From: an uncultured Mycoplasmatota bacterium
GTDB lineage: Bacteria > Bacillota_I > Bacilli_A > RF39 > UBA660
DNA length: 47,491 nt
Assembly: GCA_947642475.1 (NCBI GenBank)
Contig: CANRSQ010000004.1
Span: 1-47,491, forward strand
Reading direction: 5' to 3'
In this document: positions 17,933 through 41,849 of the stretch, in pieces
How positions within the stretch are numbered: position 1 is the first letter of the stretch
Layout: every line of letters begins with the position of its first letter
The notes under the pieces: model-generated
The model's database searches: none
Told to the model about the DNA's origin: nothing
What the model saw: only the letters and a program-made list of their open reading frames with translations
Made by a program: the position numbers and the translations under genes

Positions 17933-17961
17933 AAAAAGTTGATAAAAAATATCAACTTTTT
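17933..17961. terminator. Strong bidirectional terminator
   Basis: A perfect 12-bp stem, AAAAAGTTGATA (17933-17944) with TATCAACTTTTT (17950-17961), loop A5, between convergent genes. Confidence 0.92.
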
Positions 17962-19600
17962 AATTACCATAATATTCAATAACAAATTCTACAATATTAA
18001 TATATTCAGGAATATTTTTAGCACAAAGAAGCAAGCAAATCGCAACTACCACAAAAATTTTAACTTTAGAATTTTTAATAATTTTGTCTATAAGCAAATA
18101 TAATAAAACAATAAATGCCCAAGAAAAATATAAAGAATATAAAATTAAACCATTCTCGGCAGTTCCCCATCCAGCTACACACAATAAAATAAATGAAAAT
18201 AAAATCCATAATCCAGAAATAATAGCCATTTTATTTTTTCTATTTAAAATCACACTTATTAAACATAAAAGCAAAATAAATATCCCAACAAAGCTATACC
18301 CCACAACTGGGTATAAACGATAAGAAGGAAAATTTCCATTCACATCAATTATAAAACTTGCAGGCGCCGCCATAAAAATACTTTTAACAAATGCTAAATA
18401 TTGCATAAGCCTATCAACAAACGATAATTTTTCACCAGAAAATGACATCAATTTTCCCATATTGTCGCCAATATTAAATACTTGTGATAATTGGCCAAAA
18501 ATAACCACTAATACAACAAAAGCAATAAAGCATTTAAATATGTTTTTTAACCAATATTTCCAGTTTTTAAAACGTGAAATAAAAGGAAATAACACGCCTG
18601 AAGTTAATAAAGTAGAAACCGCTCCTAAATATATATAATTAACATCTTTTTTATATTCATAAAATAAATAAATAGTTAAAATCAAATAAAATAAACCAAT
18701 TATATATTGTTCCATTACGAAACTAAATATAACTGTAGAAAAACTGCAGAAATAAAGTAAAATAAATAAAACAATATTTAACTTATCAAATTTCAATAAT
18801 TTACAAACCATAAGCATAGAAACATTTAGTAATAAAATCTGAATTGTTGTCAAAAAAACTGCATAACCATTTGGAACAAAAAAGAAAATTTCAGAACACA
18901 GTTTAGCCACCAAAGCAAAAGGTAATGCAAATAATCCAAAAAGTGGTTGCCTTAAATCATTTTCATCCATGTTTATATTAAAAAATGCATCACCCCTAAA
19001 TAAAGAGGAACTATCAGAAGTATACAAAATATCATAATAAACATAATCAGAAAAATAAAAACCTTGAGCAAAATAATAAAGTACCATAGTTGCAAAAAAA
19101 GTAATGCCTAAACTGATTTTCAAATATTTCTGTTCCCCATTCGATAAATTTAAATAAAATTTCTTAATAGCTGGCCAAGCTTTTAAAACCACTAAATATA
19201 CAAGAGTTATAATCGCAAAAACAGCTAAAACAACAATAATTCTACTAAACAAAACGCTATCGATTGGCAACCCCAAATCATTGTAATTTAATGTTAAGTC
19301 CCTCACAGTACCATAGATATGAATGTAATAATAATACCTAGCAATATATAATCCCAATAAACATGATATTAAAAAATAACCAAAATTTATTTTCGAAAAT
19401 AAATTTTTAAATACAAATTTTAAAAGTAATATTCCCACTATAAAAGTAGCAATTATAGATAAAACTATAAGCCACATGCCATTGTCATCAGAGTTATTAA
19501 CACCACGTAATAAAAGCAAAGTCATAAAAGGAAGCGAGCAAGCGAATAACACGCGCAAAACTAACTGACTTTTTTTCGAAAGTTTCTTTTCAACAAACAT
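17960..19600 (-). CDS. Multi-span GT-C-like membrane glycosyltransferase (putative)
   Basis: A 546-aa protein with about 12-13 TM helices and one larger loop (about 200-235, YTSDSSSLFRGDAFF then DENDLRQPLFGLFALP) on the side expected for catalysis. Acidic residues in this first loop and the overall plan resemble lipid-linked-sugar GT-C enzymes, but I cannot name the family. It sits 11 bases after the UbiA-family gene and likely uses the polyprenyl-phosphate sugar made through that enzyme. GGTAGGTG RBS before the ATG. Sugar and acceptor unknown. Confidence 0.68.
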   Translation of the reverse strand: MFVEKKLSKKSQLVLRVLFACSLPFMTLLLLRGVNNSDDNGMWLIVLSIIATFIVGILLLKFVFKNLFSKINFGYFLISCLLGLYIARYYYYIHIYGTVRDLTLNYNDLGLPIDSVLFSRIIVVLAVFAIITLVYLVVLKAWPAIKKFYLNLSNGEQKYLKISLGITFFATMVLYYFAQGFYFSDYVYYDILYTSDSSSLFRGDAFFNINMDENDLRQPLFGLFALPFALVAKLCSEIFFFVPNGYAVFLTTIQILLLNVSMLMVCKLLKFDKLNIVLFILLYFCSFSTVIFSFVMEQYIIGLFYLILTIYLFYEYKKDVNYIYLGAVSTLLTSGVLFPFISRFKNWKYWLKNIFKCFIAFVVLVVIFGQLSQVFNIGDNMGKLMSFSGEKLSFVDRLMQYLAFVKSIFMAAPASFIIDVNGNFPSYRLYPVVGYSFVGIFILLLCLISVILNRKNKMAIISGLWILFSFILLCVAGWGTAENGLILYSLYFSWAFIVLLYLLIDKIIKNSKVKIFVVVAICLLLCAKNIPEYINIVEFVIEYYGN

Positions 19601-19611
19601 AAGTCACCTAC

Positions 19612-20487
19612 CTAAATCCAAATTAAAATAATTGCAATAACATAAATAAGCACAGTAGCCATTAAAGACTTACTATTTACCAAAACCTCAACAGGATCAC
19701 CGTCTGAATCTTTTTCAACCGATAAACTATATTGAAATAAAATAATCATTAAAAGAGGCACTGTCCAAATCAATAATTGATTACCTAACTTCCCTACTAT
19801 CACAGGATCAACAGTCCACATTGAATAAAAAACAATAGTCAAAGTTAAACAAACATACATGCTTTTATCTAGAAAATCCTTATTGTAATATTTTAAAACC
19901 TTACGAGTTTTTTCTTTGTTACGAATAAATTCATTTCTGCGTTTACCAAACCCCATATAAAAGGCCCCAGACATGACAGTTAAATATAGCCAGTTAGAAA
20001 CTTCTGCATCAACCAAAATGCCGCCAAAGAATAAACGAATTAAGAATCCAGAAACCAATATGACTACATCAAGTAAAACTACATTCTTAAGCCCTTTACT
20101 ATATAAAATATTAATAATCACATAAAGTAAAGGCAATAATAAAGCATATAAATTACCATTAAGAAAAATAAGTACCCCAATTAATAACAAACAGCAAAAC
20201 ACTAAAGAAAAAATTACAGCATAAGCACTTTTAATAGAAATAGCACCAGAAGCTAAAGGCCTATTCTTTTTTGTTTCATGTAAACGGTCTTTTTCAATAT
20301 CAGACATATCATTAATAACATAAATAATTGAAGACACTAAGCAAAAGAAAATAAACCCCGCTATACAAATTAAAGTTTTATCTATATCTTTATAAAGTCC
20401 ACTAAAAAATAAAGGTAAAAATATCAACAAATTTTTAACATAATGTTTTACCCTAATCAATTTTAAATATTCTTTAATTTTACTCAT
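19612..20487 (-). CDS. UbiA-family prenyltransferase, decaprenyl-phosphate phosphoribosyltransferase-like
   Basis: Membrane enzyme of 291 aa with eight or nine TM segments. Both aspartate motifs of the superfamily are seen: VINDMSDIEKDRLH (57-70) followed by KKNRPLASG (73-81), and a second weaker one in the later loop. The opening IRVKHYVKNLLIFLPLFFSG and NDxxDxExDRxHxxKxxRP pattern are those of 5-phosphoribosyl-1-diphosphate:polyprenyl-phosphate transferases (Rv3806c type), not of menaquinone or haem enzymes. It would make polyprenyl-phosphoryl-ribose-5-phosphate, a ribofuranose or arabinofuranose donor. No DprE1/DprE2-type epimerase is in the window. Confidence 0.82.
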   Translation of the reverse strand: MSKIKEYLKLIRVKHYVKNLLIFLPLFFSGLYKDIDKTLICIAGFIFFCLVSSIIYVINDMSDIEKDRLHETKKNRPLASGAISIKSAYAVIFSLVFCCLLLIGVLIFLNGNLYALLLPLLYVIINILYSKGLKNVVLLDVVILVSGFLIRLFFGGILVDAEVSNWLYLTVMSGAFYMGFGKRRNEFIRNKEKTRKVLKYYNKDFLDKSMYVCLTLTIVFYSMWTVDPVIVGKLGNQLLIWTVPLLMIILFQYSLSVEKDSDGDPVEVLVNSKSLMATVLIYVIAIILIWI

Positions 20488-20506
20488 AAAATCACCTTAC
20501 TATCAT

Positions 20507-21388
20507 TTACTCATATATTATACAATGATTTGTAATATAATTCAATATACTCTGGCCAGTGTTTCTGTCGTAATGAAGACCGTCTCTACTTTTAAATTCT
20601 AATTCATGATAAGAATCACACATTTTAAAATTAGACAAATCTAATTTTTTAACATCATTAAACATAGTCCCATTAAATTTTTCAATAAATTCACTAGTTG
20701 CCTTTAAAGATGGAAAATATTTTCTTACCACATTATCATTAATCGGATTAACCGACAAGAAATAGAAAGTTACTTCCGGATATTCATTAGCCAATTCCTT
20801 ATAATGTTCAAAATAATTATTTACCATTTCAGGAACATTAGTATTAGTATAAAAATCATTAACGCCCAAATTAAAGACAACATGACATTTATTGTCTTTA
20901 CAATCGTTTAAATATGTTTTTAAACGTTTTAAAGCATTGGTTTCAAGCCATTCAATTTCTGCCCCACTTTTAGCAATAAATGCAAAATTTGAAGGAATAT
21001 CGAATTTACCATGTTTTCCGTCAATAATAAACTCCATTCTAGAATCGCCAACAATAATAACTTTGTTCACGCCATACCTTTTAATTTCTTTTTCTTCCTT
21101 TAAATCCTTTTTTGTGCTATTCAAAGTGGTCCTACAAGTACAGCCCTCATAACCTTTAGAAATAAAAGTATTAAATATTATTATTAACAAAAATATCAAA
21201 AACATAAACATTACAATAGATAAAAATATTTTTTGAAAAACAAAATTTTCTTTTTTATTAAATTTACTATTCATAAGTATAATAGTGCACAATAAACAAA
21301 TAAATATTACGACATAACAAAAAATATCCAAATATTTTGAATGTTCAACAAAAAAAAGTATGTTATCATCGCATATCATTGATATCAT
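20507..21388 (-). CDS. Membrane-anchored SGNH-family hydrolase/acyltransferase
   Basis: Two N-terminal TM segments (about 20-40 and 53-75) lead to an SGNH domain (about 105-293). Block I GDSR has nucleophile S116, block III is NLGVND (173-178), and block V is D269-G-L-H272, giving a complete Ser-Asp-His set. It may add or remove O-acyl groups on a surface glycan. The start is set at ATG 21388 with GTGG/GTGA upstream; the longer frame has no RBS. It is first in an operon with the UbiA-like and GT-C-like genes and is divergent from an acyltransferase-3 gene, its likely partner. Confidence 0.82.
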   Translation of the reverse strand: MISMICDDNILFFVEHSKYLDIFCYVVIFICLLCTIILMNSKFNKKENFVFQKIFLSIVMFMFLIFLLIIIFNTFISKGYEGCTCRTTLNSTKKDLKEEKEIKRYGVNKVIIVGDSRMEFIIDGKHGKFDIPSNFAFIAKSGAEIEWLETNALKRLKTYLNDCKDNKCHVVFNLGVNDFYTNTNVPEMVNNYFEHYKELANEYPEVTFYFLSVNPINDNVVRKYFPSLKATSEFIEKFNGTMFNDVKKLDLSNFKMCDSYHELEFKSRDGLHYDRNTGQSILNYITNHCIIYE

Positions 21389-21404
21389 CAAATCACCACA
21401 AAAT

Positions 21405-21433
21405 ATATTACCATATTTAAGACAAAATTTCAA
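21405..21433 (-). promoter_or_regulatory. Promoter of the SGNH-UbiA-GT operon
   Basis: Minus strand TTGAAA (21433-21428), 17-base spacer, TAATAT (21410-21405). Confidence 0.6.
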
Positions 21434-21481
21434 AAAAAACATTTATTTAATAACAAATACAAAGAAAATAAAATAAACCTA

Positions 21482-21510
21482 TTTAAAAAAAAACAAAAAT
21501 ATATTATAAT
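21482..21510 (+). promoter_or_regulatory. Promoter of the acyltransferase-3 gene
   Basis: TTTAAA (21482-21487), 17-base spacer, TATAAT (21505-21510). The leader downstream contains TTGAGTAC (21521-21528) and GTACTAAA (21538-21545), a near-palindrome. Confidence 0.55.
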
Positions 21511-21565
21511 TGTTATAGAGTTGAGTACACAATGTAAAGTACTAAAATTCAGGGGGAGTATACTT

Positions 21566-22678
21566 ATGAAAAAAGAAAGACAATCTAATTATGAACTAAT
21601 GCGTATAATATCTATGTTTTTTATAGTGATTTATCACATCATTTATCACGGAAAACTTTTAGATAATACTAATGGTACTATCCATTTAATGTTACTTTTA
21701 ATATTATGTATAAGCTTAGTGCATGTCAATTCATTTATTTTAGTAAGCGGGTATTTTCAATATAATAAGAAATTTTCAATAAAAAGTTTCTTTCAAACCT
21801 TAAATTCTGCATGGTTTTATAAAATAGTCATTGCCACAATTTTGTTAGTAACAGGAATTTATGGTTTAACAAAAATGCAGTATATAAACGCCTTCAATCC
21901 AATATATTTAGCTGGTTACTGGTTTGTAGCATGTTATTTGATTTTATATATTCTAAGCCCATTTTTAAATATATTAATCCAACATATGAATCAAAAAATA
22001 CATAGAAGATTAATTATTATTTCAATCCTATGTTTTACAATTTTTCCATTCATATCTGAACATTATTTAGGTCCAAATGACGGATTTACAGTAATACAAT
22101 TTATAATTCTTTATTTTATAGGAGCATATTTCGCCAAATACCCTATCCAAAATAATATTCATTTTAAAAATTATTCCAAAAATAAACTTCAGTCATTATT
22201 ATTTATAGGATTCTTTGGTTTTGCGTTTATAAACTTTATTTTCTATTGTTTCGGAACTACATTAGAAAGTTTCCAAACAACAATTGGGACTTATATCGGA
22301 AACCAAATAACATTCAACGCATTACATTATAATTGCTTATTTGTTCTAGCTCAATCAATATGTTATTTCTTGTGGTTTGGAACTCTAAATATAAAAAGCA
22401 AAATAATTAACTTTATTAGTCCATTAGTATTTGGAGTATATTTAATTCACGATAATCCATATATACAAGTAATGTTATATAAATGGTTAAAAATAGACAC
22501 AGGTATTCTTGTTACCAGCCCTATTATTTTTGTAAAAATATTTGTTATAGCAATATCAATATTTATCATATGTGCATTTATAGAATTTATCAGACAAAAA
22601 ATATTTGGTTTTATCAAAAAAAGAAAAACCTACAAAAAAATAACAGACAAATTCTATAATTATATTCAAAACTACTAA
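21566..22678 (+). CDS. Acyltransferase family 3 membrane protein
   Basis: O-acyltransferase of 370 aa with about ten TM segments. The family opening is clear: NYELMRIISMFFIVIYHIIYHG (8-29), with the conserved R13 and H24; the C-terminal LVFGVYLIHDNPY segment is also typical. It would move acetyl or other acyl groups across the membrane onto surface glycan or peptidoglycan. Start ATG 21566 with AGGGGGAG upstream; the longer frame begins before the RBS. It lacks a fused SGNH domain, but an SGNH gene lies divergently next door, which resembles a split OatA/OafA arrangement. Confidence 0.88.
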   Translation: MKKERQSNYELMRIISMFFIVIYHIIYHGKLLDNTNGTIHLMLLLILCISLVHVNSFILVSGYFQYNKKFSIKSFFQTLNSAWFYKIVIATILLVTGIYGLTKMQYINAFNPIYLAGYWFVACYLILYILSPFLNILIQHMNQKIHRRLIIISILCFTIFPFISEHYLGPNDGFTVIQFIILYFIGAYFAKYPIQNNIHFKNYSKNKLQSLLFIGFFGFAFINFIFYCFGTTLESFQTTIGTYIGNQITFNALHYNCLFVLAQSICYFLWFGTLNIKSKIINFISPLVFGVYLIHDNPYIQVMLYKWLKIDTGILVTSPIIFVKIFVIAISIFIICAFIEFIRQKIFGFIKKRKTYKKITDKFYNYIQNY

Positions 22679-25263: not shown

Positions 25264-25329
25264 CATACCACTCCTAGCTTTATACATTATATCAAATAAC
25301 AACAAAATATGCTAGACCTGTTATAAAAT

Positions 25330-27143: not shown

Positions 27144-27554
27144 TCACCCCTCACCCTTCTGTACAAAAATAATAGTTTTCTGAATAAAGTAGTTAATAAT
27201 AAATAGTATAATATCAACTACAAATTTAATAACAACTGCAAATGTATCAATTAAATATTTATTGATAAAATATACCAAAATACTAGAAACTAGCATCTGA
27301 ATAATAACTAAAATATAATATTTTAAAAGCATAACCTTACTATATTGTTTAAATACATACTTAGAATTAATCGCAAAATTATATAACGAAGACAAAATCC
27401 TCGCTACAATAGTAGCAACAATAATAGACTCATACCCCATGACCATTCCAAATAAATAATTAAATAAAGTAAATAGCCCTAAATCTAAAACAAAAGAAGA
27501 ACCAGCAGAAAAAACATATTTAATAAAAGTTTTATTTTTTCTTAGAAAGTTCAT
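27144..27554 (-). CDS. GtrA-family membrane protein
   Basis: Four-TM, 136-aa protein typical of GtrA, thought to flip or help flip polyprenyl-phosphate-linked monosaccharides. Family features: YVFSAGSSFVLDLGLFTLFNYLFG in TM1, ATIVARILSSLYNFAINSKYVFK in the TM2 region, and a terminal NYFIQKTIIF. It overlaps the preceding DUF2304 gene by 23 bases and is followed after four bases by the DUF6020 gene: a translationally coupled module GT2-DUF2304-GtrA-DUF6020. Confidence 0.9.
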   Translation of the reverse strand: MNFLRKNKTFIKYVFSAGSSFVLDLGLFTLFNYLFGMVMGYESIIVATIVARILSSLYNFAINSKYVFKQYSKVMLLKYYILVIIQMLVSSILVYFINKYLIDTFAVVIKFVVDIILFIINYFIQKTIIFVQKGEG

Positions 27555-27879
27555 TTTTTATAATTCCTATTTCTTGTGCTAAAGCAATGTTCTTCTTTTT
27601 CTCCATATTATATATTCTGTATAAATCAAAAGATAAAATTAGTAAACACATTACCCCTGCAAATAACACTAAATTAGATATCGTTTTTATTCCAACTATA
27701 GAAGCAAAATCTACAAGTACCTTTGGAAATAAAATGAAAACAATCATCAAAATACCAAATAAAAACCATAAAACAGAACTTTTAATAGGCATTTTTTCTT
27801 TTCTAACAGCTCTTAAAACAATTATGAAATATAAAATAGTAACAACTGTTAAAAAAATTTGTAATTTAATCGATAACAT
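27532..27879 (-). CDS. DUF2304-family small membrane protein
   Basis: 115 aa, three TM helices followed by a charged helical tail (about 92-115, KKKNIALAQEIGIIKNELSKKK). The sequence SVLWFLFGILMIVFILFPKVLVDFASIVGI is typical of DUF2304, which nearly always neighbours a dolichyl-phosphate-sugar-synthase-like GT2, as here. Role unknown; likely an accessory of the GT2. Its start overlaps the GT2 stop (TAATG), and GGGGG lies nine bases or so upstream. Confidence 0.85.
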   Translation of the reverse strand: MLSIKLQIFLTVVTILYFIIVLRAVRKEKMPIKSSVLWFLFGILMIVFILFPKVLVDFASIVGIKTISNLVLFAGVMCLLILSFDLYRIYNMEKKKNIALAQEIGIIKNELSKKK

Positions 27880-28595
27880 TACTTTCTACCCCCAAACTTC
27901 TTATAATTTAATATAACAATAGAAAGGCAAACATTAAACATATAATAAATAGATTTTAAATAGCTAATAGAAGATTGGCCCCCTACGCGTTCATACATAT
28001 TAACGCCGACTTCCTTTATCTTAAAATTATTTTTTAATAATGCATAATTAGTAATCGGTTCAGGAAAATCAAAAGGATAATTATTAGAAAAAACTTCAAT
28101 TATTTTTTTATTAACAGCTCGATATCCACTAGTTACATCTTTAATTTTTTTACCAGAACATAACTTAATTAAACCAGAAATAACATTAATTCCAAATTGC
28201 CTAGCTTTAGTTGATTTAAAAGAACTAGTATCATCAATGAACCTAGATCCTATTACCATATCAGCGTCACCACTTATAATCGGATCAACTATTTTATCGA
28301 TATAATTAATATCATGCTGCCCATCACCATCGAATTGAACCGCAATATCATATCCATTATAATAAGCGTACCTATAACCCGTTTGAACTGCCGCACCAAT
28401 TCCTAAATTAAATGGTAAATCAATAAAATTAATATCACTTTGTTTTAAAACATCGCGTGTACCATCAGAACTTCCATCATTAATAACTATATAATCAAGT
28501 TTAATTTTTTTATATTCTTTTATATTATTAATCGTTTTTAAAATGTTTTTCTCTTCATTATATGCAGGAATGATTATTAAAATCTTTTTACTCAC
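27879..28595 (-). CDS. GT2 glycosyltransferase, polyprenyl-phosphate sugar synthase-like
   Basis: 238-aa cytosolic GT-A enzyme of the DPM1/Ppm type: IIIPAYNEEKNI, VINDGSSDGT, FDGDGQHD (DxD region, about 88-95) and the ADMVIGSRF motif. It would transfer a hexose from a nucleotide sugar to undecaprenyl phosphate for use by the GtrA/DUF6020 genes downstream. GTG at 28595 is chosen: AGAGAGGA lies nine bases upstream, whereas the upstream in-frame TTG abuts that RBS. First gene of its operon, with a consensus-like promoter. Confidence 0.9.
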   Translation of the reverse strand: MSKKILIIIPAYNEEKNILKTINNIKEYKKIKLDYIVINDGSSDGTRDVLKQSDINFIDLPFNLGIGAAVQTGYRYAYYNGYDIAVQFDGDGQHDINYIDKIVDPIISGDADMVIGSRFIDDTSSFKSTKARQFGINVISGLIKLCSGKKIKDVTSGYRAVNKKIIEVFSNNYPFDFPEPITNYALLKNNFKIKEVGVNMYERVGGQSSISYLKSIYYMFNVCLSIVILNYKKFGGRK

Positions 28596-28618
28596 CGTGA
28601 TCAATCCTCTCTAAAAAA

Positions 28619-30252: not shown

Positions 30253-31827
30253 CTATTCTTCTTCCTTATTATTTATACTAAGTAATAACATACCACATAT
30301 TAATCCTAAATATAAAGTTACTATCCATTCATCAAATACATTACCGCTTACTATACCAGCAAAGAATACTAATACAATACTAAATGCCATAGTTACATTA
30401 ATAAAAGTAAACTTTTTATTATAATCTCTAAACATTTTATAAAGCGCATAACCAAGAACTACTAAATATGGACAGATAAACAATATAATACCTATAATTC
30501 CAATAGAATACATATGAACATAAATATCATTTTCCATATAACATAAAGCATTTCTAAGTCTAGTAAAAGACATACCAACAACATAATCTATACTATTATC
30601 ATTAAGTTCAATAACACGTTTAGTAACATCCTTTTTAAGTTGACGATGATTAGCTCTATCAGCAAAAGGAATTTCATACTCAGCAAGCCAAAAATCTGGA
30701 TCATCAGTGTAAGGATAAATTTTTTCAACAAAAGTACGATCTACACCATAAGTACCAAAAGAATTTTTAATAAAGTTGCTTTTTTCAAGTTGCAAAGCTT
30801 CTCTTTCCTCTTTTGTAAGATCTTCTTTTTCTTTTTCAGCAATATACTTTTTAAACTTTTTCAAAGTCTTAGTACCATCGCTGTTTTCGATATTTTCTTC
30901 AACCACTTCAGAATTATCGTTAATATAAGTTCTATTCATAACTGGTGAAAAAGGTAAAATCGCCCCACCAATTACAATCATAACAATAAAGACTAATAAA
31001 GGTTTCAAACTAAATGTAATCTCTTTTTTTATAAATGCAAAGAATAAGTAAATTATAATCATTGCCACTGCAATCGCAATCCACCCCATAGATGCTACAC
31101 GTGTTCCTAACATCAACATAGAAATTATCGTTAAAAATAAAGTAATACCATGTAGAACATTTGGCTTTTTAAAATAAATATAAATTAACAAAGGTAATAA
31201 ACAAACCAATACTCCACTAACTTGATTGGCCATATGAAATATTCCCTTAGAAGCAATATCAAGATATTGATATTTAGAATATATATCACCATAAAACCAT
31301 TCAAAGAAAGTAGCCTTAATCGCATGAGTTCCCCCACCATAAGAAGCAAGCGCTAAACCTAAAAAGTTAGTAACTACCATAGTTACACTAAATATTAAAG
31401 CAACAGCTACGATAATATTTTTAAAATATTTAACACTTAAATTCTTTTCATAAGTAATAAAAATTATTAATAACGGCATTATCATTCTAACTAAATAAAA
31501 CATCTCTTTTACAAAAGAATATTGTTCGAAATTACCATAGGCAACATAAAAATTTGTAGAATTTATATGATGGAATATCGCATAGATCAAATAAATAATA
31601 GAAGCCACTATTAAAAATTTATATTTCCGCTTATCTTTAAACCAAATAAAACTTGTTATAAATAAAACGCCCATTATAAGCATTCTTATAATAGTAGATG
31701 GCGAAAACTTAAATATAGCAATTAAATTATCACTATATAGCCAAAAAATATCAAATAATGGCTGTGCAATCATAAAGCCAATAAATAAATATAACATACA
31801 TTTTTTAAATTTTTCATTTTTAAACAT
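30253..31827 (-). CDS. O-antigen ligase/polymerase-like membrane protein
   Basis: 524 aa, about 12 TM segments, with one large soluble loop (about 300-425) between late TM helices, as in Wzy polymerases and WaaL ligases. The conserved-type loop carries charged residues (KKFKKYIAEKEKEDLTKEE, then DRANHRQLKKDV) and the region HMANQVSGVLVCLLPLLIYIYF and TRVASMGWIAIAV fits the O_ligase family. It probably polymerises repeat units or attaches the finished glycan. GAGGTG RBS is made from the last codons of the upstream GT4 gene, three bases away. Confidence 0.78.
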   Translation of the reverse strand: MFKNEKFKKCMLYLFIGFMIAQPLFDIFWLYSDNLIAIFKFSPSTIIRMLIMGVLFITSFIWFKDKRKYKFLIVASIIYLIYAIFHHINSTNFYVAYGNFEQYSFVKEMFYLVRMIMPLLIIFITYEKNLSVKYFKNIIVAVALIFSVTMVVTNFLGLALASYGGGTHAIKATFFEWFYGDIYSKYQYLDIASKGIFHMANQVSGVLVCLLPLLIYIYFKKPNVLHGITLFLTIISMLMLGTRVASMGWIAIAVAMIIIYLFFAFIKKEITFSLKPLLVFIVMIVIGGAILPFSPVMNRTYINDNSEVVEENIENSDGTKTLKKFKKYIAEKEKEDLTKEEREALQLEKSNFIKNSFGTYGVDRTFVEKIYPYTDDPDFWLAEYEIPFADRANHRQLKKDVTKRVIELNDNSIDYVVGMSFTRLRNALCYMENDIYVHMYSIGIIGIILFICPYLVVLGYALYKMFRDYNKKFTFINVTMAFSIVLVFFAGIVSGNVFDEWIVTLYLGLICGMLLLSINNKEEE

Positions 31828-31830
31828 TTT

Positions 31831-32988
31831 TTACACCTCATCTAATAATTTTTCAATATCATTAATTATACTTGCTGTATCATAACTATAACTTTGTAAA
31901 TTTTGTTTATATTTTTCTAACTTATTCTTATCTTCTAAAATTGAAGAAATTGCCGAGTACAACCCCTGTTCACTATTATCAGTAATAATTCCTAAATCAT
32001 CATTCATAATTTCATGAATACTAGCAACTTCAGTTGATATAACTGGAGTTCCCAAAACCATAGACTCTAAAATAACAAGTCCAAACGGTTCGTATCTAGA
32101 ACACATCAAAAAAGCATCAGAGCTTTTAACATAAGGAAATGGATTTTTAACACTTCCCAAAAGTTCTATTTTATTTTCCAAATTATACTCTTTAATCAAG
32201 TCCTTAACCATATTAAAATCAGGGCCATCACCAATAATTCTTAAATAAACATTATCAAGTTTCCCATTTTCATTTAATTGATTAAAAACTTTAACCAATC
32301 TGTCATAACCTTTCATATTATGAATACGTCCCACAGATACCAAATTAATCACACCATCAGAAAACTCTACACTACTATTATCCGACATATTTATAATTTT
32401 ATCTACATTAATTAAATTATAAATAACTTTACATTCTGTATTAGGATACTTACTCTGAAATTTTTGAACAACCGAATTGGAAATTCCAATTATTTTATTA
32501 AATTTTTTAAAAGTTTCATCAAATACCTTTTTATATTTAGCCGTACAATCATACATAGAATAATCAGTATGAAGCCAATGATATTTGTATTTACTATCGC
32601 CATAAGCAGTAAATAAAGCCGTAAAACCATCCTTAAAAGCAACTTCAACATCATATTTTTTATGAACACATTTTTTTCTTTCATTTATTATTTTTCTTTT
32701 AATTAAACCAGTTTTCATTAAAAACACTAAATAAGCCTTTTTAAAAATTTTATCAATTTTCTTAGTTTTTAAAACCTCATTAAAAGATAAATCAACAACG
32801 TCAAAAAACGAAGAACCATAAATTAAATTTACCTCACTTGGCAAATCATCCAAACAGTCACCATTGTTATGTAGGACCATAACATCAACATTATACTTAG
32901 AAAGGTTAATATTATTTAAAATGTCACTCAATAAAACTGACACCCCGCCCATTCGCTTTTCATCAACAACAAACAATACATTTTTCAT
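31831..32988 (-). CDS. GT4-family glycosyltransferase
   Basis: Retaining GT-B enzyme of 385 aa. N-terminal acceptor domain opens VLFVVDEKRMGGVS with the glycine-rich loop; the C-terminal donor domain has SVGRIHNMKGYDRLV, IIGDGPDFNMV, and the E-x7-E motif EPFGLVILE (about 296-304), followed by GTPVISTEV. Transfers an unknown sugar from a nucleotide donor to the growing lipid-linked glycan on the cytosolic face. Part of a co-directional run; three bases from the ligase gene. Confidence 0.92.
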   Translation of the reverse strand: MKNVLFVVDEKRMGGVSVLLSDILNNINLSKYNVDVMVLHNNGDCLDDLPSEVNLIYGSSFFDVVDLSFNEVLKTKKIDKIFKKAYLVFLMKTGLIKRKIINERKKCVHKKYDVEVAFKDGFTALFTAYGDSKYKYHWLHTDYSMYDCTAKYKKVFDETFKKFNKIIGISNSVVQKFQSKYPNTECKVIYNLINVDKIINMSDNSSVEFSDGVINLVSVGRIHNMKGYDRLVKVFNQLNENGKLDNVYLRIIGDGPDFNMVKDLIKEYNLENKIELLGSVKNPFPYVKSSDAFLMCSRYEPFGLVILESMVLGTPVISTEVASIHEIMNDDLGIITDNSEQGLYSAISSILEDKNKLEKYKQNLQSYSYDTASIINDIEKLLDEV

Positions 32989-32998
32989 TTTAGCACCT

Positions 32999-33985
32999 CT
33001 AGCTTTTCTTTCGAAAGTTTTTTATATAAATAATTCGCGCAAATAAATTATTAAAGAAAATAAAGTATATTGAATTACATAAAGATTTAATGCCATTTAT
33101 TTTTAAAATATATTTGTTATGGCGATAATTAGGAAAATGTTCTTTAACCTGGCCCTTAGCGTATTTAACGCCTAACATAAATTCAGTAAAATCGCCACAT
33201 TTAGCTAGTCCATTAATAAAAGTATTATACAAATATCTTACATAACAATATTCAAGTTCACTAAAATATTCATCATAAAAACCATTTTCCTTATAGTAAG
33301 AAACAATTCCATTCCAATTTTCAATATAATTAAAAATCCTCTTATCGAAAGTTTTTGAAATAGCCCCGTCCCTCTGAACATAATTAATCAAAGGCTCATT
33401 AACTGTCCCAATGCTTTTAACATAAGGAAATAAACGATATAAAAATTCAACGTCTTCATACCACACACTTTTCTTAAACCTAACGCCACTTTCAAATAAA
33501 CTTTTTTTATAAATTTTATTCCACGCAACCGGATAAATGTTAACCATTTGTTTTTTTAATAATTCTTCATCAAAAACATCGCTATTAACTAATGAAGAAA
33601 TAAATTCAGTATGATCCGGATATACCGAATTAACATCACAAACAACCATATCAAAATTTTGAGAAATTGCTTTATTATATAATTTTTCGAACATATCACA
33701 TTCTACATAATCATCACTATCAACAAAACCAATATATTCTCCTGTCGCAAATTGTAATCCATAATTGCGCGCATCACTAAGACCACCATTTTCTTTAATA
33801 TAACCTTTAACAAAATCTGGATACTGTGCTGTATACTTATCAATAATAGCTTGGCTATTATCAGGAGAACCATCATTTACCACAATAATTTCTATATTTT
33901 TTAAAGTTTGATTAACCAAACTATTTAAACATTTATCTAAATAATCTTCCACGTTATAAACTGGAACAATCACACTTACCTTCAT
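32999..33985 (-). CDS. GT2-family glycosyltransferase
   Basis: Inverting GT-A enzyme, 328 aa. SVIVPVYNVEDYLDKCLNSL, VVNDGSPDNS, and DSDDYVE (DxD region) mark the catalytic domain in residues 1-110; the remaining 200 residues are a helical accessory domain of the CpsI/EpsJ type. Start ATG 33985 is chosen because GGAGG, encoded by the last codons of the upstream GT2, lies five bases upstream. Close paralogue in layout of the GT2 gene before it. Confidence 0.92.
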   Translation of the reverse strand: MKVSVIVPVYNVEDYLDKCLNSLVNQTLKNIEIIVVNDGSPDNSQAIIDKYTAQYPDFVKGYIKENGGLSDARNYGLQFATGEYIGFVDSDDYVECDMFEKLYNKAISQNFDMVVCDVNSVYPDHTEFISSLVNSDVFDEELLKKQMVNIYPVAWNKIYKKSLFESGVRFKKSVWYEDVEFLYRLFPYVKSIGTVNEPLINYVQRDGAISKTFDKRIFNYIENWNGIVSYYKENGFYDEYFSELEYCYVRYLYNTFINGLAKCGDFTEFMLGVKYAKGQVKEHFPNYRHNKYILKINGIKSLCNSIYFIFFNNLFARIIYIKNFRKKS

Positions 33986-33987
33986 CA

Positions 33988-34938
33988 CTACCTCCTAAGT
34001 AATTTTCTAGCCAAACTAATTTGATTATTAAAAAACAAATTACATATAATTTTATATTTAATATTTTCTTTTTTATAATATTTATTATTACGCCATTTAG
34101 GAAATTTTTCCTTCATAGTTTTAGATACTAAGGCAACATTTTTTATACCTTCATTATAACTAATAAAACGTAAATTAGCAGCATGAAGTAAGTATTCGAT
34201 GTAAATATATTCAAGTTCATCAAAATATTCATCATATTTGCCAAGACTAACAAAACCATCATATAAATAATCTAACACTTCAAATATATCTTCCCATTTT
34301 GGATTATAAACAGACTTATTTAAAGATGATCCCTCTCTTTGTAAATAATAATATTTTGGTTCTTTTAAGTAAGCAACATCATTAGCAAACGCACTTATCA
34401 AAGGCATAACAGCATTATCCTCAAAACATTTTCCGTTTAAAAAATACAAATCATTATCTAAAAATAATTCTTTTTTTATAAGCTTACACACCGGTCCAGG
34501 CATAGCCAATATATGCGTTTTATAATTATCTGTATCAAAAGGAATTAATTTAACAGCTTCCTTATTTCCATCTTCAAAATATTTATAATAATCACAATAA
34601 ACAATATCTTTTTGGCCATTATCAGTCAAATTAACCATTTTTTCAATAGTATCTAAATCAATATAATCATCGCCATCAACAAAAAACAAATAATCTCCAG
34701 TAGCATTCTTTATAGCAAAATTACGCGCAGCAGCCGCCCCACCATTTTCTAAATGAAAAACTTTAATACGCTCATCTTTATTTGCATATTCATCACACAA
34801 CAAAGAAGATCCATCACTACTCCCATCATCAACAACCAAAATTTCCAAATTACTATATGATTGATTAATAATAGATTCAAAACATTTATCTAGATAATCT
34901 TTAACATTATAAACTGGTATAATTACAGATATTTTCAT
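33988..34938 (-). CDS. GT2-family glycosyltransferase
   Basis: 316-aa GT-A enzyme: SVIIPVYNVKDYLDKCFESI, VVDDGSSDGSS, ENGGAAAARN and DGDDYID (DxD region). C-terminal accessory domain with EDNAVMPLISAFANDVAYLKEPKYYYLQREGS, typical of capsule/exopolysaccharide GT2 enzymes. Start ATG 34938 with GGCGGTGG upstream. It begins a new transcript, since a terminator lies just upstream (34998-35017); a weak TATAGT is present about 20 bases before the start. Sugar specificity unknown. Confidence 0.9.
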   Translation of the reverse strand: MKISVIIPVYNVKDYLDKCFESIINQSYSNLEILVVDDGSSDGSSLLCDEYANKDERIKVFHLENGGAAAARNFAIKNATGDYLFFVDGDDYIDLDTIEKMVNLTDNGQKDIVYCDYYKYFEDGNKEAVKLIPFDTDNYKTHILAMPGPVCKLIKKELFLDNDLYFLNGKCFEDNAVMPLISAFANDVAYLKEPKYYYLQREGSSLNKSVYNPKWEDIFEVLDYLYDGFVSLGKYDEYFDELEYIYIEYLLHAANLRFISYNEGIKNVALVSKTMKEKFPKWRNNKYYKKENIKYKIICNLFFNNQISLARKLLRR

Positions 34939-34989
34939 AAGCCACCGCCTTACCATACTATAACAATTTTATCAAAAAATATCCTATAT

Positions 34990-35017
34990 GTCTATAAAAG
35001 AGTGTCTATACACTCTT
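34990..35017 (-). terminator. Internal terminator of the glycan island
   Basis: AAGAGTGT (34998-35005) pairs with ACACTCTT (35010-35017), 4-base loop; overlaps the stop of the GT4 gene at 35016. The T tail is short (four), so partial read-through is likely. Confidence 0.75.
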
Positions 35018-36089
35018 ATTTTTCAATAACTTCAGTAAGTTTTCCTAAAACATCTTGGTTAAATTTCTCCGGATCAAATGATTTACATATAAAACCATCA
35101 TCCAAAAATTGTTTCAATCCAGCAGTATAAGAATCTTCATTTATTTCTGTTACAATCCCATATTTATCCTTTATATCAACCAAAGCATCGCTAACATTTG
35201 TTGTAATAAGTGGTTTCCCTAAAATTCTAGCTTCAACAAACACAACTGGATTTCCCTCCATAACCGATGAAAGCACGACAGCATCCGCTGACTTATAATA
35301 AACAAACGGATTAGATTTTCGTCCAAAAAAAGTAACAACATCTTGAAGATTATTTTCTTTGACAAAGTCCGTATACATTTTAGAATCTGGGCCATCACCA
35401 ATCATCCACAAATTAAAATCATAACCATCATCAATTAATCTTTTAACCGACTTTAAAAGAAGCATTAAATTTTTAGCTTTTTCCTCATGACGGCTAACAT
35501 TAACGAAAGTAACTTTTTCTTTTTCAATTACTTCTTCCTCGGCTTTTTTTAAAACCTTGTTATAATCAATAAAATTATTAAAAACATAAGTTTTTCCATT
35601 AAAAATAATTCCTCTTTTTGTAAAAGAATCTAAAATAGAATTCGCCACAAAAACAATTTTTTGATATTTTTGAACATTTATATAATCAACAAATTTATTA
35701 AGCCCTTTATCATCAAATTCAATAGTATAATCGCCATGAATCCAAATCGCATTATTTTGAGAAAAATGATACGCTAATTTTGTACAAGATTTAATTGTTG
35801 TCGCATATGCGGCCGCAAAATCAAATTTATTCTTATATTTTAATTTAAAATAATTTAACTTAACAAAGTTAACCAATTTTCTAAATAAAATATTTTTACT
35901 TTCACATATATTAAAATCAATAATTTTTACTTCCTTAGGAATATCATTTAAAAATATCCCTTCTTTTTTAGTCAAAAATAAACTAACATTATACTTAGAA
36001 TAATCTAAATTATTAAGCAAACTTACTAAAGCAGTTTCTATCCCACCCAAATCTAAATTATAAGCACAAAAAACAATATTTTTTTTCAT
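35016..36089 (-). CDS. GT4-family glycosyltransferase
   Basis: GT-B enzyme of 357 aa, similar in plan to the other GT4 of the island. N-terminal IVFCAYNLDLGGIETALVSLL; donor domain NVSRHEEKAKNLMLLL, MIGDGPDSKMY, FGRKSNPFVYYKSADAVVLSSVMEGNPVVFVEA with the E-x7-E pair, and GKPLITTNVS. Predicted cytosolic. AGGTGA RBS eight bases before the ATG; follows the Stealth gene closely. Ends at an internal terminator. Confidence 0.92.
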   Translation of the reverse strand: MKKNIVFCAYNLDLGGIETALVSLLNNLDYSKYNVSLFLTKKEGIFLNDIPKEVKIIDFNICESKNILFRKLVNFVKLNYFKLKYKNKFDFAAAYATTIKSCTKLAYHFSQNNAIWIHGDYTIEFDDKGLNKFVDYINVQKYQKIVFVANSILDSFTKRGIIFNGKTYVFNNFIDYNKVLKKAEEEVIEKEKVTFVNVSRHEEKAKNLMLLLKSVKRLIDDGYDFNLWMIGDGPDSKMYTDFVKENNLQDVVTFFGRKSNPFVYYKSADAVVLSSVMEGNPVVFVEARILGKPLITTNVSDALVDIKDKYGIVTEINEDSYTAGLKQFLDDGFICKSFDPEKFNQDVLGKLTEVIEK

Positions 36090-36097
36090 AAAATCAC

Positions 36098-37102
36098 CTA
36101 TTTTTCAAAACTAGATTTCAAAGGAAACTTTTCATCAAACACACTAATTAATTCATTTGAAACTTTTTCAAAATCAAGATTAGTATTTACATCATTAATA
36201 CAAGCAATCGTTGATTTGTCACTTCTAATATAATCAAACAAATCCTTATTATCATTTTTTAAAACAAAATACTTCCCAAAATCATCATATGATTTTACGG
36301 CAAAATTTCCCTTCAGCATTTGCCACCATTGAACCGCCCATTGATTAACATCAAAAACACTTCTAAATTTATTTTGGCATGTTCTATCAAGCATCTTATA
36401 TTCTTTATCCCAAACCTCCTTAAAAGAAGATTTTAAAAACGCATTAGCTGTATGAGGAATATCAAAACCACAAAAATAATTCCATCTGTTAAGCATCAAA
36501 TATCTTACATTTCTTTTCTTATATTTTAAATTAAACACTTTAGAAAAATTTTCTTTAACAAATTTTCTTTTATCAAAATTCTTATTAACTAAAAACAAAT
36601 CATTCAAAACAATATGGTCAAAAAAATTATCATCAGCATCCTCGGTTTTAAAAGTATTTTCCTTCCAAAAATCACAAGGTAAACCATCCCTAAAAAAGTA
36701 TTCTGGATCTAACTTATTCAAAATAAACATATCATCATTAAAGAAAACAAAGCGTTCCTCTAATTCATCAATTCTATGCAAATTAAGTTCGATTGGATTA
36801 GCATTAAAAACAGGTAAATATTTTTTTGGAATATAATCTTCATGTTTTACTATGTTAAGTTTTGGATTTGTAGTATCAAGCCATTCTGGCAAATGTCCCC
36901 AAGTAACAAAATGTATTTTATTGACCCAAGGAGTATATTTCTCTACTGCTCTAAACCAATATTTTAATGTCCCCATATCCCTATATCTATTAATCTCAGC
37001 ATCAATATCAATTTTTTTATCACTATATTTATTCTTTTCTTCAAGCCACTTTGGATCACTACCATCAACCCATAAAACAACAAAATCTATTTTTTCTTGC
37101 AT
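36098..37102 (-). CDS. Stealth-family capsular polysaccharide phosphotransferase
   Basis: Predicted sugar-1-phosphate transferase joining glycan units by phosphodiester links. 334 aa with the conserved regions of the family: CR1 IDFVVLWVDGSDPKW (5-19), CR2 RDMGTLKYWFRAVEKYTPWVNKI-HFVTWGHLPEWL (41-75) with FNDDMF (121-126), CR3 PHTANAFL (about 213-220) and a degenerate CR4 near INDVN. The start is ATG 37102, GGAGG eight bases or so upstream. Its presence predicts a phosphodiester-containing, teichoic-acid- or capsule-like polymer. Sits after the PssE/PssD-like pair. Confidence 0.92.
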   Translation of the reverse strand: MQEKIDFVVLWVDGSDPKWLEEKNKYSDKKIDIDAEINRYRDMGTLKYWFRAVEKYTPWVNKIHFVTWGHLPEWLDTTNPKLNIVKHEDYIPKKYLPVFNANPIELNLHRIDELEERFVFFNDDMFILNKLDPEYFFRDGLPCDFWKENTFKTEDADDNFFDHIVLNDLFLVNKNFDKRKFVKENFSKVFNLKYKKRNVRYLMLNRWNYFCGFDIPHTANAFLKSSFKEVWDKEYKMLDRTCQNKFRSVFDVNQWAVQWWQMLKGNFAVKSYDDFGKYFVLKNDNKDLFDYIRSDKSTIACINDVNTNLDFEKVSNELISVFDEKFPLKSSFEK

Positions 37103-37121
37103 TTTACATACCTCCGTATAA

Positions 37122-37601
37122 TTAATTATTATCAATATAATCTTTTATTTTTGAAATAAATTTTTCATTATTAGAAACAAATTTCTTTGGTTTAAATTTT
37201 TTTGCATCTTCCAAAACTTTATCCAAATTATCAAAGTCATCAAGTTTTAAAATATAACCCTTATTATAAAATGTTTCCGTTATTTGTAATTGATGATCAT
37301 TAGTATGCTCCCCATATATTTTAAGTCTAGGCGCTGCGATAACCCTTTTACCACGTTTTAAAGCATCAATTATACACCCTACTCCAGCATGAGTAATTAA
37401 TAAATCACAATCATTAATATATTTATTAAAATCATCCATTGAAACAAGATCAAATATTTCCATATCATTACTTTGATATTTTGTATATCCCGCTTGGACA
37501 ACAACTTTCTCATTAATATTTCCTAAATCAATTTGTTTTTGAATAGCATCTAATAAACGTTTAAAACTTTTGTCTTGAGTCCCTAAAGTAACAAATATCA
37601 T
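37122..37601 (-). CDS. PssE/EpsF-like (Alg13-type) glycosyltransferase subunit
   Basis: 159-aa catalytic half of a split GT28-type enzyme. MIFVTLGTQDKSFKRLLDAI (1-20), then ITHAGVGCIIDALKRGKRVIAAPR (about 69-92), the donor-binding glycine loop, and GEHTNDHQLQI. Works with the membrane-bound PssD-like partner encoded just upstream to add the second sugar to the lipid-linked unit. 12 bases separate the two genes. Confidence 0.9.
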   Translation of the reverse strand: MIFVTLGTQDKSFKRLLDAIQKQIDLGNINEKVVVQAGYTKYQSNDMEIFDLVSMDDFNKYINDCDLLITHAGVGCIIDALKRGKRVIAAPRLKIYGEHTNDHQLQITETFYNKGYILKLDDFDNLDKVLEDAKKFKPKKFVSNNEKFISKIKDYIDNN

Positions 37602-37613
37602 ATTTTCACATCC

Positions 37614-38090
37614 TTAAAATAAACTACCATAAAATTTAGCTTTCGGATAAAGTTCAAGCATACTTTCCCACTGTACAATAAATAAATCCGCAAATTTATA
37701 TACTAATTTGCCAGTAACAGTTTTAGTTTGACTATTCGCAAAAGTTTCAATAAAAATAATCTTACTACCAAAAATCTTACCAATACAGCACATTGGGCCA
37801 GCAATATGAGCCCCCGTACTAACAATATACTTAGGTCTTACTTTAATATAAGTAAATAATTCAATCCAGCAATTAATAAATAATTTAAATAAATATGTAA
37901 ATTTATGGTCTTTGGTTCCATAAATAACATAACTAATTTTATTACCAAATTTCTTTTTCAAATTAAGATTACTCGCAGTTTTTTCTGTAACAATATAATA
38001 ATCATAATTATCAAATAAAGGTTCTAATTGTAAAAGTTCATTTAAATGCCCACCAGTACTAGCAATAAACATAACTTTTTTCTTTTTCAT
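37614..38090 (-). CDS. PssD/EpsE-like (Alg14-type) glycosyltransferase subunit
   Basis: 158-aa membrane-associated partner of the PssE-like enzyme. KVMFIASTGGHLNELLQL (5-22), YIVTEKT, VSTGAHIAGPMCCIGKIFGSKIIFIETFA (about 95-123) and FIVQWESMLELYPKAKFYGSLF at the C-terminus are the family landmarks. The start is ATG 38090; the longer frame has no RBS of its own. It is first of a transcript with its own promoter behind the flippase terminator. Confidence 0.9.
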   Translation of the reverse strand: MKKKKVMFIASTGGHLNELLQLEPLFDNYDYYIVTEKTASNLNLKKKFGNKISYVIYGTKDHKFTYLFKLFINCWIELFTYIKVRPKYIVSTGAHIAGPMCCIGKIFGSKIIFIETFANSQTKTVTGKLVYKFADLFIVQWESMLELYPKAKFYGSLF

Positions 38091-38113
38091 AAGTATCACT
38101 ACTTTCTATCAAT

Positions 38114-38142
38114 ATTTTACCAATTTTATAATTAAATTACAA
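38114..38142 (-). promoter_or_regulatory. Internal promoter driving the PssD-like gene
   Basis: Minus strand TTGTAA (38142-38137), 17-base spacer, TAAAAT (38119-38114), downstream of the flippase terminator. Confidence 0.65.
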
Positions 38143-38151
38143 CCACGCAAA

Positions 38152-38171
38152 AGAAAAAAGGCATCAGCCTT
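38152..38171 (-). terminator. Terminator after the flippase gene
   Basis: AAGGC (38158-38162) pairs with GCCTT (38167-38171), loop ATCA, minus-strand T6 tail. Overlaps the stop codon of the flippase gene. Confidence 0.75.
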
Positions 38172-39690
38172 ATTTATTTCTTTTAATAAATTTCTTTAAT
38201 AACCATTTAAAATATTCATATTCACCGGTTTTTCTATAAACGATAAAGAAAATTAAATTGACAACAACTAATGTGATAATACCATTTATAACAAATTGTA
38301 AGAACGGATGAGATACCGTAATCACATTAATAAGTACTAAAGTAATTCCAAGCATTACTAACATTAAAATAAATAATTTAAATTGTTCAATTATAAAATC
38401 TTTTTTTGGTTTATGAAAAATTGGTTCATAAACATACTTTGGATAACTATATAGATATAGGATTAAAGAACTTATAACACCAGCAATAAACACACCGGCT
38501 ATTCCGTACATTTTAACAAAGAAAATAGCACAAACTAAATTTACAATTGATTCAACAATAGGTATTCTTCTATCTTCGTAAAATATACCAGCTGCCTCTT
38601 TAAACAAATTAATAGTCTTTCGCATACCTTGAACATAAAAGTAAATAGCAAGCCATACAACAGCATATAATGGAAGTAAATATTTTTCTCCTATCCACCA
38701 TGTTATAAACGGTTGTAAAGTAGCAAACAATCCTACAGAACAAAGTGCATATATCCAAAAATCAAATAAAGTTAATTTTTTATAAACTTCAAAACTCTTT
38801 TCTGTATTTTCTTTAACAAGTAAATTACCCACACTAGAAACAATAGAGAAGAAAATTTGCGATAACAATATTGAAATAGAATTAAAAATCAAGAAATAGT
38901 TATTATATATACCAGCTTGTTTTAAACCTAATAACATAGAAATTACAATATAAGCAGTACCCATAACTATAAATGAGCCAATTTTATGACAGAATAATCC
39001 CTTAATTTTAGTAAAAATATCATCTTTAGTTTCTTTATCCATAGGAGCATAATCTTTTTCTTTAATATAAGGATATTTCCTATTTGCGATAAAGTTAATA
39101 ACTAAATTTTCTAAAACTCTAAACACAATTCTTAAAACTAAATATACAATATAATTTTTAAGTAAGAATAATAGCCAAATTTCAAATAAATTTAATAATA
39201 CTAAATAAACTAAATGAACAATATTTATAATATAATTCTTTTGATTGGCAATCAAAATAGAACGCTTATACGTTATCAAATAAGAAAATACAACATCAAT
39301 TAAAGCTAAATAATATAATAAATATATATTTTCTGGTATTGACGTTTCACCAACAAAGATTGGAATTAAAGGCGTAATAGCAATACCAATTATCAAAATA
39401 ACTCCAGCTATTGTATTATAGCATTTCTTATAAAACCCCATTAAAGTCTTAATTTTTTCCGTATTATTTTCAGCAATTGGTTTGTATAAATTATAAACAA
39501 TTGCACTACCAATACCCATTTCTACAATACCTAGCATTGACATGATATTAGTAAATAATCCATTAGCGCCCGAATACTCTAATCCAAGGCACATTAAAAA
39601 TATTTTTTGCGTTACAAAGCCAAAAACCATTCCTACTAAACTTGCCAAAGTAGAAAATACGGCATTATAAATTGAATTTTTGGTTCTCAT
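38170..39690 (-). CDS. Wzx-like polysaccharide flippase (MVF/MATE-type)
   Basis: 506 aa with 12-14 TM helices. Opening MRTKNSIYNAVFSTLASLVGMVFGFVTQKIFL and GLEYSGANGLFTNIMSMLGIVEMGIGSAIVYNLY (about 36-69) are typical of oligosaccharide flippases of Gram-positive surface loci. It would move undecaprenyl-pyrophosphate-linked repeat units to the outer face for the ligase/polymerase-like protein. Follows the GT2 at 39714 after 23 bases; ends in a terminator. Confidence 0.9.
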   Translation of the reverse strand: MRTKNSIYNAVFSTLASLVGMVFGFVTQKIFLMCLGLEYSGANGLFTNIMSMLGIVEMGIGSAIVYNLYKPIAENNTEKIKTLMGFYKKCYNTIAGVILIIGIAITPLIPIFVGETSIPENIYLLYYLALIDVVFSYLITYKRSILIANQKNYIINIVHLVYLVLLNLFEIWLLFLLKNYIVYLVLRIVFRVLENLVINFIANRKYPYIKEKDYAPMDKETKDDIFTKIKGLFCHKIGSFIVMGTAYIVISMLLGLKQAGIYNNYFLIFNSISILLSQIFFSIVSSVGNLLVKENTEKSFEVYKKLTLFDFWIYALCSVGLFATLQPFITWWIGEKYLLPLYAVVWLAIYFYVQGMRKTINLFKEAAGIFYEDRRIPIVESIVNLVCAIFFVKMYGIAGVFIAGVISSLILYLYSYPKYVYEPIFHKPKKDFIIEQFKLFILMLVMLGITLVLINVITVSHPFLQFVINGIITLVVVNLIFFIVYRKTGEYEYFKWLLKKFIKRNK

Positions 39691-39713
39691 TTAAATTTCA
39701 CCACCCAATAATT

Positions 39714-40694: not shown

Positions 40695-40711
40695 GAAAAT
40701 CACCTATTATC

Positions 40712-40740
40712 ATTTTATAACAAATAACATTATTTTACAA
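40712..40740 (-). promoter_or_regulatory. Leading promoter of the glycan island
   Basis: Minus strand TTGTAA (40740-40735), 17-base spacer, TAAAAT (40717-40712), 18 bases before the first GT2 start. Same hexamers as the internal promoter at 38114-38142. Confidence 0.65.
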
Positions 40741-40743
40741 GTT

Positions 40744-40772
40744 AGAAAAAAATTAGGGAATAAACCCCTAAT
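40744..40772 (-). terminator. Terminator after the SpoIVB-like gene
   Basis: ATTAGGG (40752-40758) pairs with CCCTAAT (40766-40772), 7-base loop; minus-strand T7 tail. Contains the UAG stop (40770-40768). Confidence 0.88.
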
Positions 40773-41760: not shown

Positions 41761-41810
41761 AAAATCATCTCCTATAACATAAATCAGACTACACTATTAT
41801 TATAATTCAA

Positions 41811-41841
41811 AATAAAAAAAATAAAGGTAGAATATTCTACC
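41811..41841 (-). terminator. galE terminator
   Basis: GGTAGA (41826-41831) and TCTACC (41836-41841) form a stem around ATAT, with a T-rich minus-strand tail. Confidence 0.85.
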
Positions 41842-41849
41842 ATTTATCT

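Follow-up and report, generated by a model that had tools for sequence, protein, structure and literature searches.

The window analysed here, 47,491 nucleotides in length, is an entire contig (C4) of G000, an uncultured Bacilli genome of 1.10 Mb that is 91% complete. Its genes for a UbiA-superfamily protein, an SGNH protein and a stand-alone acyltransferase-3 (AT3) protein lie at the border of a polysaccharide cluster encoded on the minus strand and, together with an adjoining GT-C-like gene, are the subject of this work:

17960..19600, minus strand: GT-C-fold glycosyltransferase of 546 aa, candidate pentofuranosyltransferase (AlphaFold model, fold comparison, invariant acidic residues)
19612..20487, minus strand: predicted UbiA-superfamily polyprenyl-phosphate phosphoribosyltransferase (PPPRS/DPPRS-like), 291 aa (Pfam, NCBIfam, PDB matches, PRPP-site residues)
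20507..21442, minus strand: membrane-anchored, probably extracytoplasmic SGNH acyltransferase or esterase, 311 aa (Pfam, fold, catalytic residues)
21443..21565, no strand: divergent intergenic region with TATAAT at 21505-21510 (plus strand) upstream of AT3 (sequence inspection)
21566..22678, plus strand: stand-alone AT3 of 370 aa, divergent from the SGNH gene (PF01757, 6.6e-20)

An earlier reading made from the letters alone (the sequence-only reading) had placed the SGNH gene at the head of a run with the UbiA and GT-C-like genes. This agreed with the layout, as the gaps are 19 bp (SGNH to UbiA) and 11 bp (UbiA to the GT-C open reading frame, ORF), each with a GGTGA-type site, and the three genes form a single tight run. 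The AT3 ORF spans 21521-22678 on the plus strand, with the ATG at 21566 as the start with a good ribosome-binding site, and the true start of the SGNH gene is perhaps nearer codon 18. Promoter-like matches in the intergenic region as a whole were not above chance (48 against 42.7 expected). Pfam identified UbiA (5e-23), Lipase_GDSL in the SGNH protein (1.3e-6) and Acyl_transf_3 in AT3 (6.6e-20).

The predicted phosphoribosyltransferase and its GT-C neighbour

The best NCBIfam match of the UbiA protein was NF008977 (decaprenyl-phosphate phosphoribosyltransferase) at 191.8 bits, compared with 42 for UbiA_proteo and 28 for CyoE. The sequence-only reading had called the enzyme decaprenyl-phosphate phosphoribosyltransferase-like and had named in advance clustering with unrelated prenyltransferases as the contrary outcome; no such clustering was found. 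The top PDB sequence matches were the Rv3806c entries 8j8j (E 8e-30) and 8j8k (9e-22), and the third was an archaeal UbiA (E 3e-4). Using the roles of the phosphoribosyl pyrophosphate (PRPP) and Mg contacts of Rv3806c described in passages of PMC10994848, we found 10 of 12 residues identical (R22, K28, Y70, N73, D77, K87, R90, Y138, K143, and K208). The two changes were Q135N and Y157F, and the same passages report that Tyr157 is Phe in some mycobacteria. Across 16 homologues all PRPP-site positions were fixed except K208.

The absence of any second UbiA-superfamily gene among those found in the genome would suit an enzyme that makes quinone, haem or another prenylated product. We regard this as very improbable, however, given the profile scores, the PRPP-site residues and the neighbours of UbiA in the genus, which are mostly glycosyltransferase and GT-C genes.

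UbiA homologues were present in 32 of 196 relatives, one of which, G107, reached no better than E 8e-5, and in half of the genus (22 of 44 members), a patchy distribution that fits the expectation for surface antigens. The nearest named contigs came from uncultured Firmicutes/Bacilli metagenome-assembled genomes, with Candidatus Onthousia faecavium (L093) among the more distant, and the search of UbiA against PHROGs gave a weak match only. Published work on the genus was looked for and yielded nothing useful. Two genomes, G007 (L037:5630-9293) and G021 (L035), carry directly before UbiA a pair of paralogues with sulfatase domains (the second matching PF00884), each behind a small membrane protein.

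The 546-aa ORF next to UbiA had no Pfam match above cutoff. Its AlphaFold model had a pLDDT of 89.4, and Foldseek returned nothing at E < 0.001, with ALG12 the best match (E 0.012, probability 1.00). VIA-align gave Z scores of 20.4 for ALG12, 18.1 for ArnT, 16.6 for Pmt1-Pmt2, 13.7 for AftD, 13.1 for AftA and 11.7 for AftB, while the first unrelated fold scored 3.8; the GT-C-like assignment of the sequence-only reading thus held at the level of fold. The GT-C core covers residues 151-546, residues 1-150 form four extra N-terminal transmembrane helices, and D190, D196 and E297 were invariant in 24 homologues. A gene of the same GT-C family adjoins UbiA in 34 of 98 rows of the UbiA tree introduced below. 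We strongly infer a phosphoribosyltransferase in the UbiA protein and a GT-C partner beside it.

The likeness to arabinan chemistry that had been proposed was not borne out. No DprE1-type FAD_binding_4 gene matched in the 91%-complete genome, where 13 of 14 controls were positive and MurB, which belongs like DprE1 to the FAD_binding_4 family, was likewise not seen. MurB was not seen although a MurA-like gene lies on contig C40, which may reflect an assembly gap or a real loss. With no FAD_binding_4 match, DprE1-type arabinose formation is unlikely, and ribofuranose, the simpler product, is the likeliest sugar. Available passages of PMC11127046 show the same entry enzyme serving arabinofuranose (Araf) and xylofuranose (Xylf) in other bacteria. 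Arabinofuranose or another epimer here is nevertheless improbable, both on the FAD_binding_4 result and on the UbiA neighbourhoods, since 127 UbiA neighbours held 136 Pfam families, and the 25 commonest of these included neither an epimerase nor FAD_binding_4.

Proposed phosphate removal and flipping

The window UbiA falls in a clade of 12 rows (SH-aLRT 99) in a tree of 99 rows built by a quick method, and neighbouring genes were counted over 98 of the rows. A HAD phosphatase lies within two genes of UbiA in 51 of the 98 rows, and in 44 of 80 named UbiA loci, but in none of the 12 rows of the window clade, two of which have truncated context. The window clade seems to be without the usual phosphatase. 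Genome G013 has two UbiA copies (C2 and C26), one of the HAD-less clade and the other adjoining a HAD fusion.

A phosphatase gene elsewhere in the genome had also been envisaged, and the search yielded no HAD over cutoff and only a PAP2 gene. The HAD phosphatase model PF12710 had three matches in G000, all below cutoff. Our HAD profile A4 had none in G000, although 6 of the 44 genomes of the genus were positive; 5 of these 6 belong to the 22 that carry UbiA. We rejected PAP2 as a dedicated phosphatase: the genome's one PAP2 gene is of a kind that recurs across the genus (37 of 44 genomes) and adjoins sigma-factor-like and YitT-like ORFs (names by sequence reading), so that it has no tie to UbiA.

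Three forms of HAD occur near UbiA in relatives, namely free HAD proteins (about 190 aa), HAD-GtrA proteins and HAD on polytopic proteins of 690-1080 aa. In L043:6442-7410, and in the same gene in L094, a HAD phosphatase is fused to a GtrA-type domain with four transmembrane segments (by Pfam on L043), which puts a phosphatase and a candidate flippase on one chain. In-house profiles marked further HAD-GtrA ORFs of 305-341 aa, mostly adjoining UbiA, in L086, L100, L111, L112, L115, L120, L142 and L147. In L120, from the cultivable relative Clostridium puniceum DSM 2619, UbiA comes first and HAD-GtrA second. Large polytopic proteins (695-1078 aa) with HAD at the N-terminus stand beside UbiA in L067:6158-9394 (by in-house profile) and in L069:10091-12190 and L088:9790-11877 (both by Pfam); those of 1078 aa and 699 aa also match the GT-C profile. 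We found no description of either fusion in the available passages of PMC11127046.

If the window clade leaves the 5'-phosphate in place, the GT-C protein would transfer ribofuranose-5-phosphate and the side chain would be anionic. The lack of HAD beside UbiA in this clade (0 of 12 rows, against 51 of 98 overall) and of a HAD over cutoff in the genome fits such a product, but we consider it unlikely, as homologues of the same GT-C family adjoin HAD genes in L066, L093, L114, L121 and L136. In mycobacteria Rv3807c, a PAP2-type protein, carries out this removal, and the genus-wide PAP2 (37 of 44) could act likewise. Passages of PMC11127046 describe Rv3807c as unrelated to the HAD PRPs.

Candidates for flipping lie farther into the cluster, which continues on the minus strand as follows:

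27144..27554, minus strand: GtrA-type small membrane protein, candidate polyprenyl-phosphate sugar flippase, which may serve a DPM-type donor instead (PF04138, 2.4e-8)
27879..28604, minus strand: GT2 polyprenyl-phosphate sugar synthase-like protein, a putative second lipid-linked donor line in the cluster (PpgS, 93 bits, below the cutoff of 370)
30253..42848, minus strand: remaining surface-polysaccharide cluster with Wzy-like, GT4/GT2, Stealth-like, PssD/PssE, Wzx-like and GalE genes (ORF list, names by sequence reading)

A homologue of the PssD-like ORF, L076:12570-13037, matches NF041549. Between 25370 and 30244, DUF6020 and DUF2142 membrane proteins with GtrA, DUF2304 and DPM-like GT2 genes appear to make up the second lipid-linked sugar line.

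The AT3 and SGNH proteins

The sequence-only reading had described a membrane-anchored SGNH protein with an intact triad and a stand-alone AT3 gene as its divergent neighbour. The ORFs, two transmembrane segments and the residues S134, D287 and H290 confirmed this, and the full catalytic set (S134, G160, N195, D287, and H290) was invariant across 13 homologues. The hydrophobic segments (34-62 and 65-99) have a lysine-rich turn between them, which by the positive-inside rule would place the catalytic part outside the membrane. The model (pLDDT 70.8) has the SGNH fold, and its matches included sialate O-acetylesterase 6xpg (E 4e-7), PatB 8tlb (E 8e-7) and the OafB domain 6se1 (E 5e-5). A second SGNH gene of the genome, on contig C40 beside a MurA-like ORF (name by sequence reading), was considered as an alternative partner for AT3.

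The AT3 protein carries R-X10-H, a motif taken from passages of PMC9833829, in its first transmembrane segment. Searches of the genome returned no second AT3 and no MBOAT gene. Convergent with the AT3 gene, at 22723-25305, lies a gene for a GH25 lysozyme-type protein (860 aa) that carries about ten ricin-type lectin repeats.

Among the 44 genus genomes, SGNH occurred in 33 and AT3 in 40; both were present in 32, SGNH alone in one (G005), AT3 alone in 8 and neither in 3. Completeness is only 62-74% in three of the four genomes without AT3. AT3 shares a contig with SGNH at 29 of 34 SGNH places, within 300 bp at 9 and within 1300 bp at 15. Under a gene-order null the closeness at 9 of 29 had P between 0.0005 and 0.009, depending on the assumed cluster size and uncorrected for relatedness. 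UbiA (23 places) lies within 300 bp of AT3 on 8 of 17 shared contigs and within 300 bp of SGNH on 3 of 15. Outside the genus, tandems of AT3 followed by an SGNH gene from a different subfamily, with gaps of 24-46 bp, occur in L088, L108, L118, L146, L149 and L099. The tandem stands directly before UbiA-HAD in L146 and L149, which are near-identical, and directly after it in L099. AT3, SGNH and UbiA genes tend to sit together, and because their combinations recur in relatives the grouping is more than chance.

These results leave the proposal of a split OatA pair plausible but unproven: neighbouring AT3 and SGNH genes do recur in other lineages, whereas there is evidence against a strict pairing. 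We tentatively propose, at well under even confidence, a natural split in which AT3 passes the acyl group on to the separate anchored SGNH protein, and together they acylate the polymer that the phosphoribosyltransferase/GT-C module has decorated with furanose. This is the more interesting and the less certain part of the interpretation, compared with the phosphoribosyltransferase and GT-C part. Several observations weigh against it. The co-occurrence of SGNH and AT3, which had been suggested as a check, was marginal over the 44 genus genomes (Fisher p 0.04), and neither SGNH nor AT3 presence correlated with UbiA (p 0.49 and 1.0). Visual inspection of the aligned part of AT3 showed no RxxR. 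A strict pair is further opposed by G005, by the separation of SGNH and AT3 at most genus loci, and by AT3 being tied to UbiA at least as tightly as to SGNH.

An independent SGNH deacylase or esterase at the cluster border, with AT3 acting alone and mainly with the UbiA/GT-C module, is a serious possibility that falls somewhat short of an even chance. SGNH is commonly found beside ORFs of the cluster border (of 209 aa, 330 aa and mnmA type) instead of AT3, and this would suit such a border enzyme, as would G005, the 8 of 17 shared contigs with AT3 within 300 bp of UbiA, and the sialate O-acetylesterase among the nearest folds. However, the closeness of AT3 to SGNH on 9 of 29 shared contigs speaks against it, PatB and the OafB SGNH domain were fold matches as well, and in the 80 UbiA loci AT3 neighbours 7 of 12 SGNH genes while making up about 2% of ORFs.

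A candidate decorating module and known systems

As a whole, we interpret the locus as a side-chain decorating module (ribofuranose plus acyl) in the surface-polysaccharide cluster of an uncultured Bacilli genome, an explanation that we consider somewhat more probable than its failure. After the UbiA step, an enzyme whose gene lies elsewhere, perhaps the generic PAP2, would take off the 5'-phosphate; this is the weakest step. The lipid-linked ribofuranose would be flipped, perhaps by a GtrA-type protein, and the GT-C protein, whose fold is established, would place it on the polymer outside the cell. AT3 would carry an acyl group across the membrane and, itself or via the separate SGNH protein, esterify the decorated polymer; here the families are clear and the pairing and target are presumptive.

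Other results count against the module. The UbiA score of 192 bits lies below the curated NF008977 cutoff of 234, and G000 had neither a PF12710 phosphatase over cutoff nor, in a search run without a positive control, a HAD-GtrA homologue. No flippase stands directly beside UbiA, GtrA and Wzx-like genes lying elsewhere in the cluster, and a GtrA-like flippase fused at the GT-C N-terminus was rejected for now (hhalign probability 1.1).

In available passages of PMC11127046, the one paper found to describe the pathway, Kelly et al. (2024) show that a PPPRS, a HAD phosphatase, a flippase and a GT-C enzyme provide side-chain ribofuranose, and that epimerases join them where the sugar is Xylf or Araf. 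They also mention candidates from Gram-positive bacteria, and this kind of system is therefore already known. As in their Citrobacter youngae O1/O2 pathway, a UbiA phosphoribosyltransferase lies beside a GT-C gene in a surface-glycan locus. Unlike that system, the window has no HAD PRP domain fused or nearby and no MATE flippase or epimerase alongside, has attached AT3 and SGNH genes, and comes from Bacilli. The partner there belongs to the GT136 sequence family; the one in the window was assigned to GT-C by fold. With this locus, the polyprenyl-phosphoribose route would be extended to uncultured Bacilli; relatives contribute HAD-GtrA and HAD-polytopic fusions. The locus shares the UbiA subfamily, PRPP pocket and GT-C partners with the mycobacterial DPPRS (Rv3806c) and arabinan pathway, but differs in that the genome yielded no DprE1-type gene and AT3 and SGNH are separate. 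Acylated furanose polymers have a precedent, since SucT succinylates mycobacterial arabinan according to passages of PMC10503756.

Passages of PMC9558356 and PMC9833829 raise, without settling it, the question of a separate SGNH partner for stand-alone AT3 proteins, and in titles, abstracts and passages we found no published description of a stand-alone AT3 accompanied by its own SGNH gene. The split pair, if true, would answer for one group whether a stand-alone AT3 needs an SGNH partner. Lineages with AT3 and SGNH as separate neighbours, here without detectable MBOAT, offer a direct test of that question. As in OatA/OafB, the AT3 has R-X10-H and the SGNH protein has a full catalytic set and is probably extracytoplasmic; in place of one fused chain, the window encodes the two separately on opposite strands, the SGNH protein carries a two-segment anchor of its own, and RxxR was not seen in AT3. 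Compared with the MBOAT-SGNH pairs PatA/PatB (PMC12148441), the transporter here is an AT3, with no MBOAT found in the genome, but the membrane acyl transporter and the SGNH protein are likewise separate and PatB is among the fold matches.

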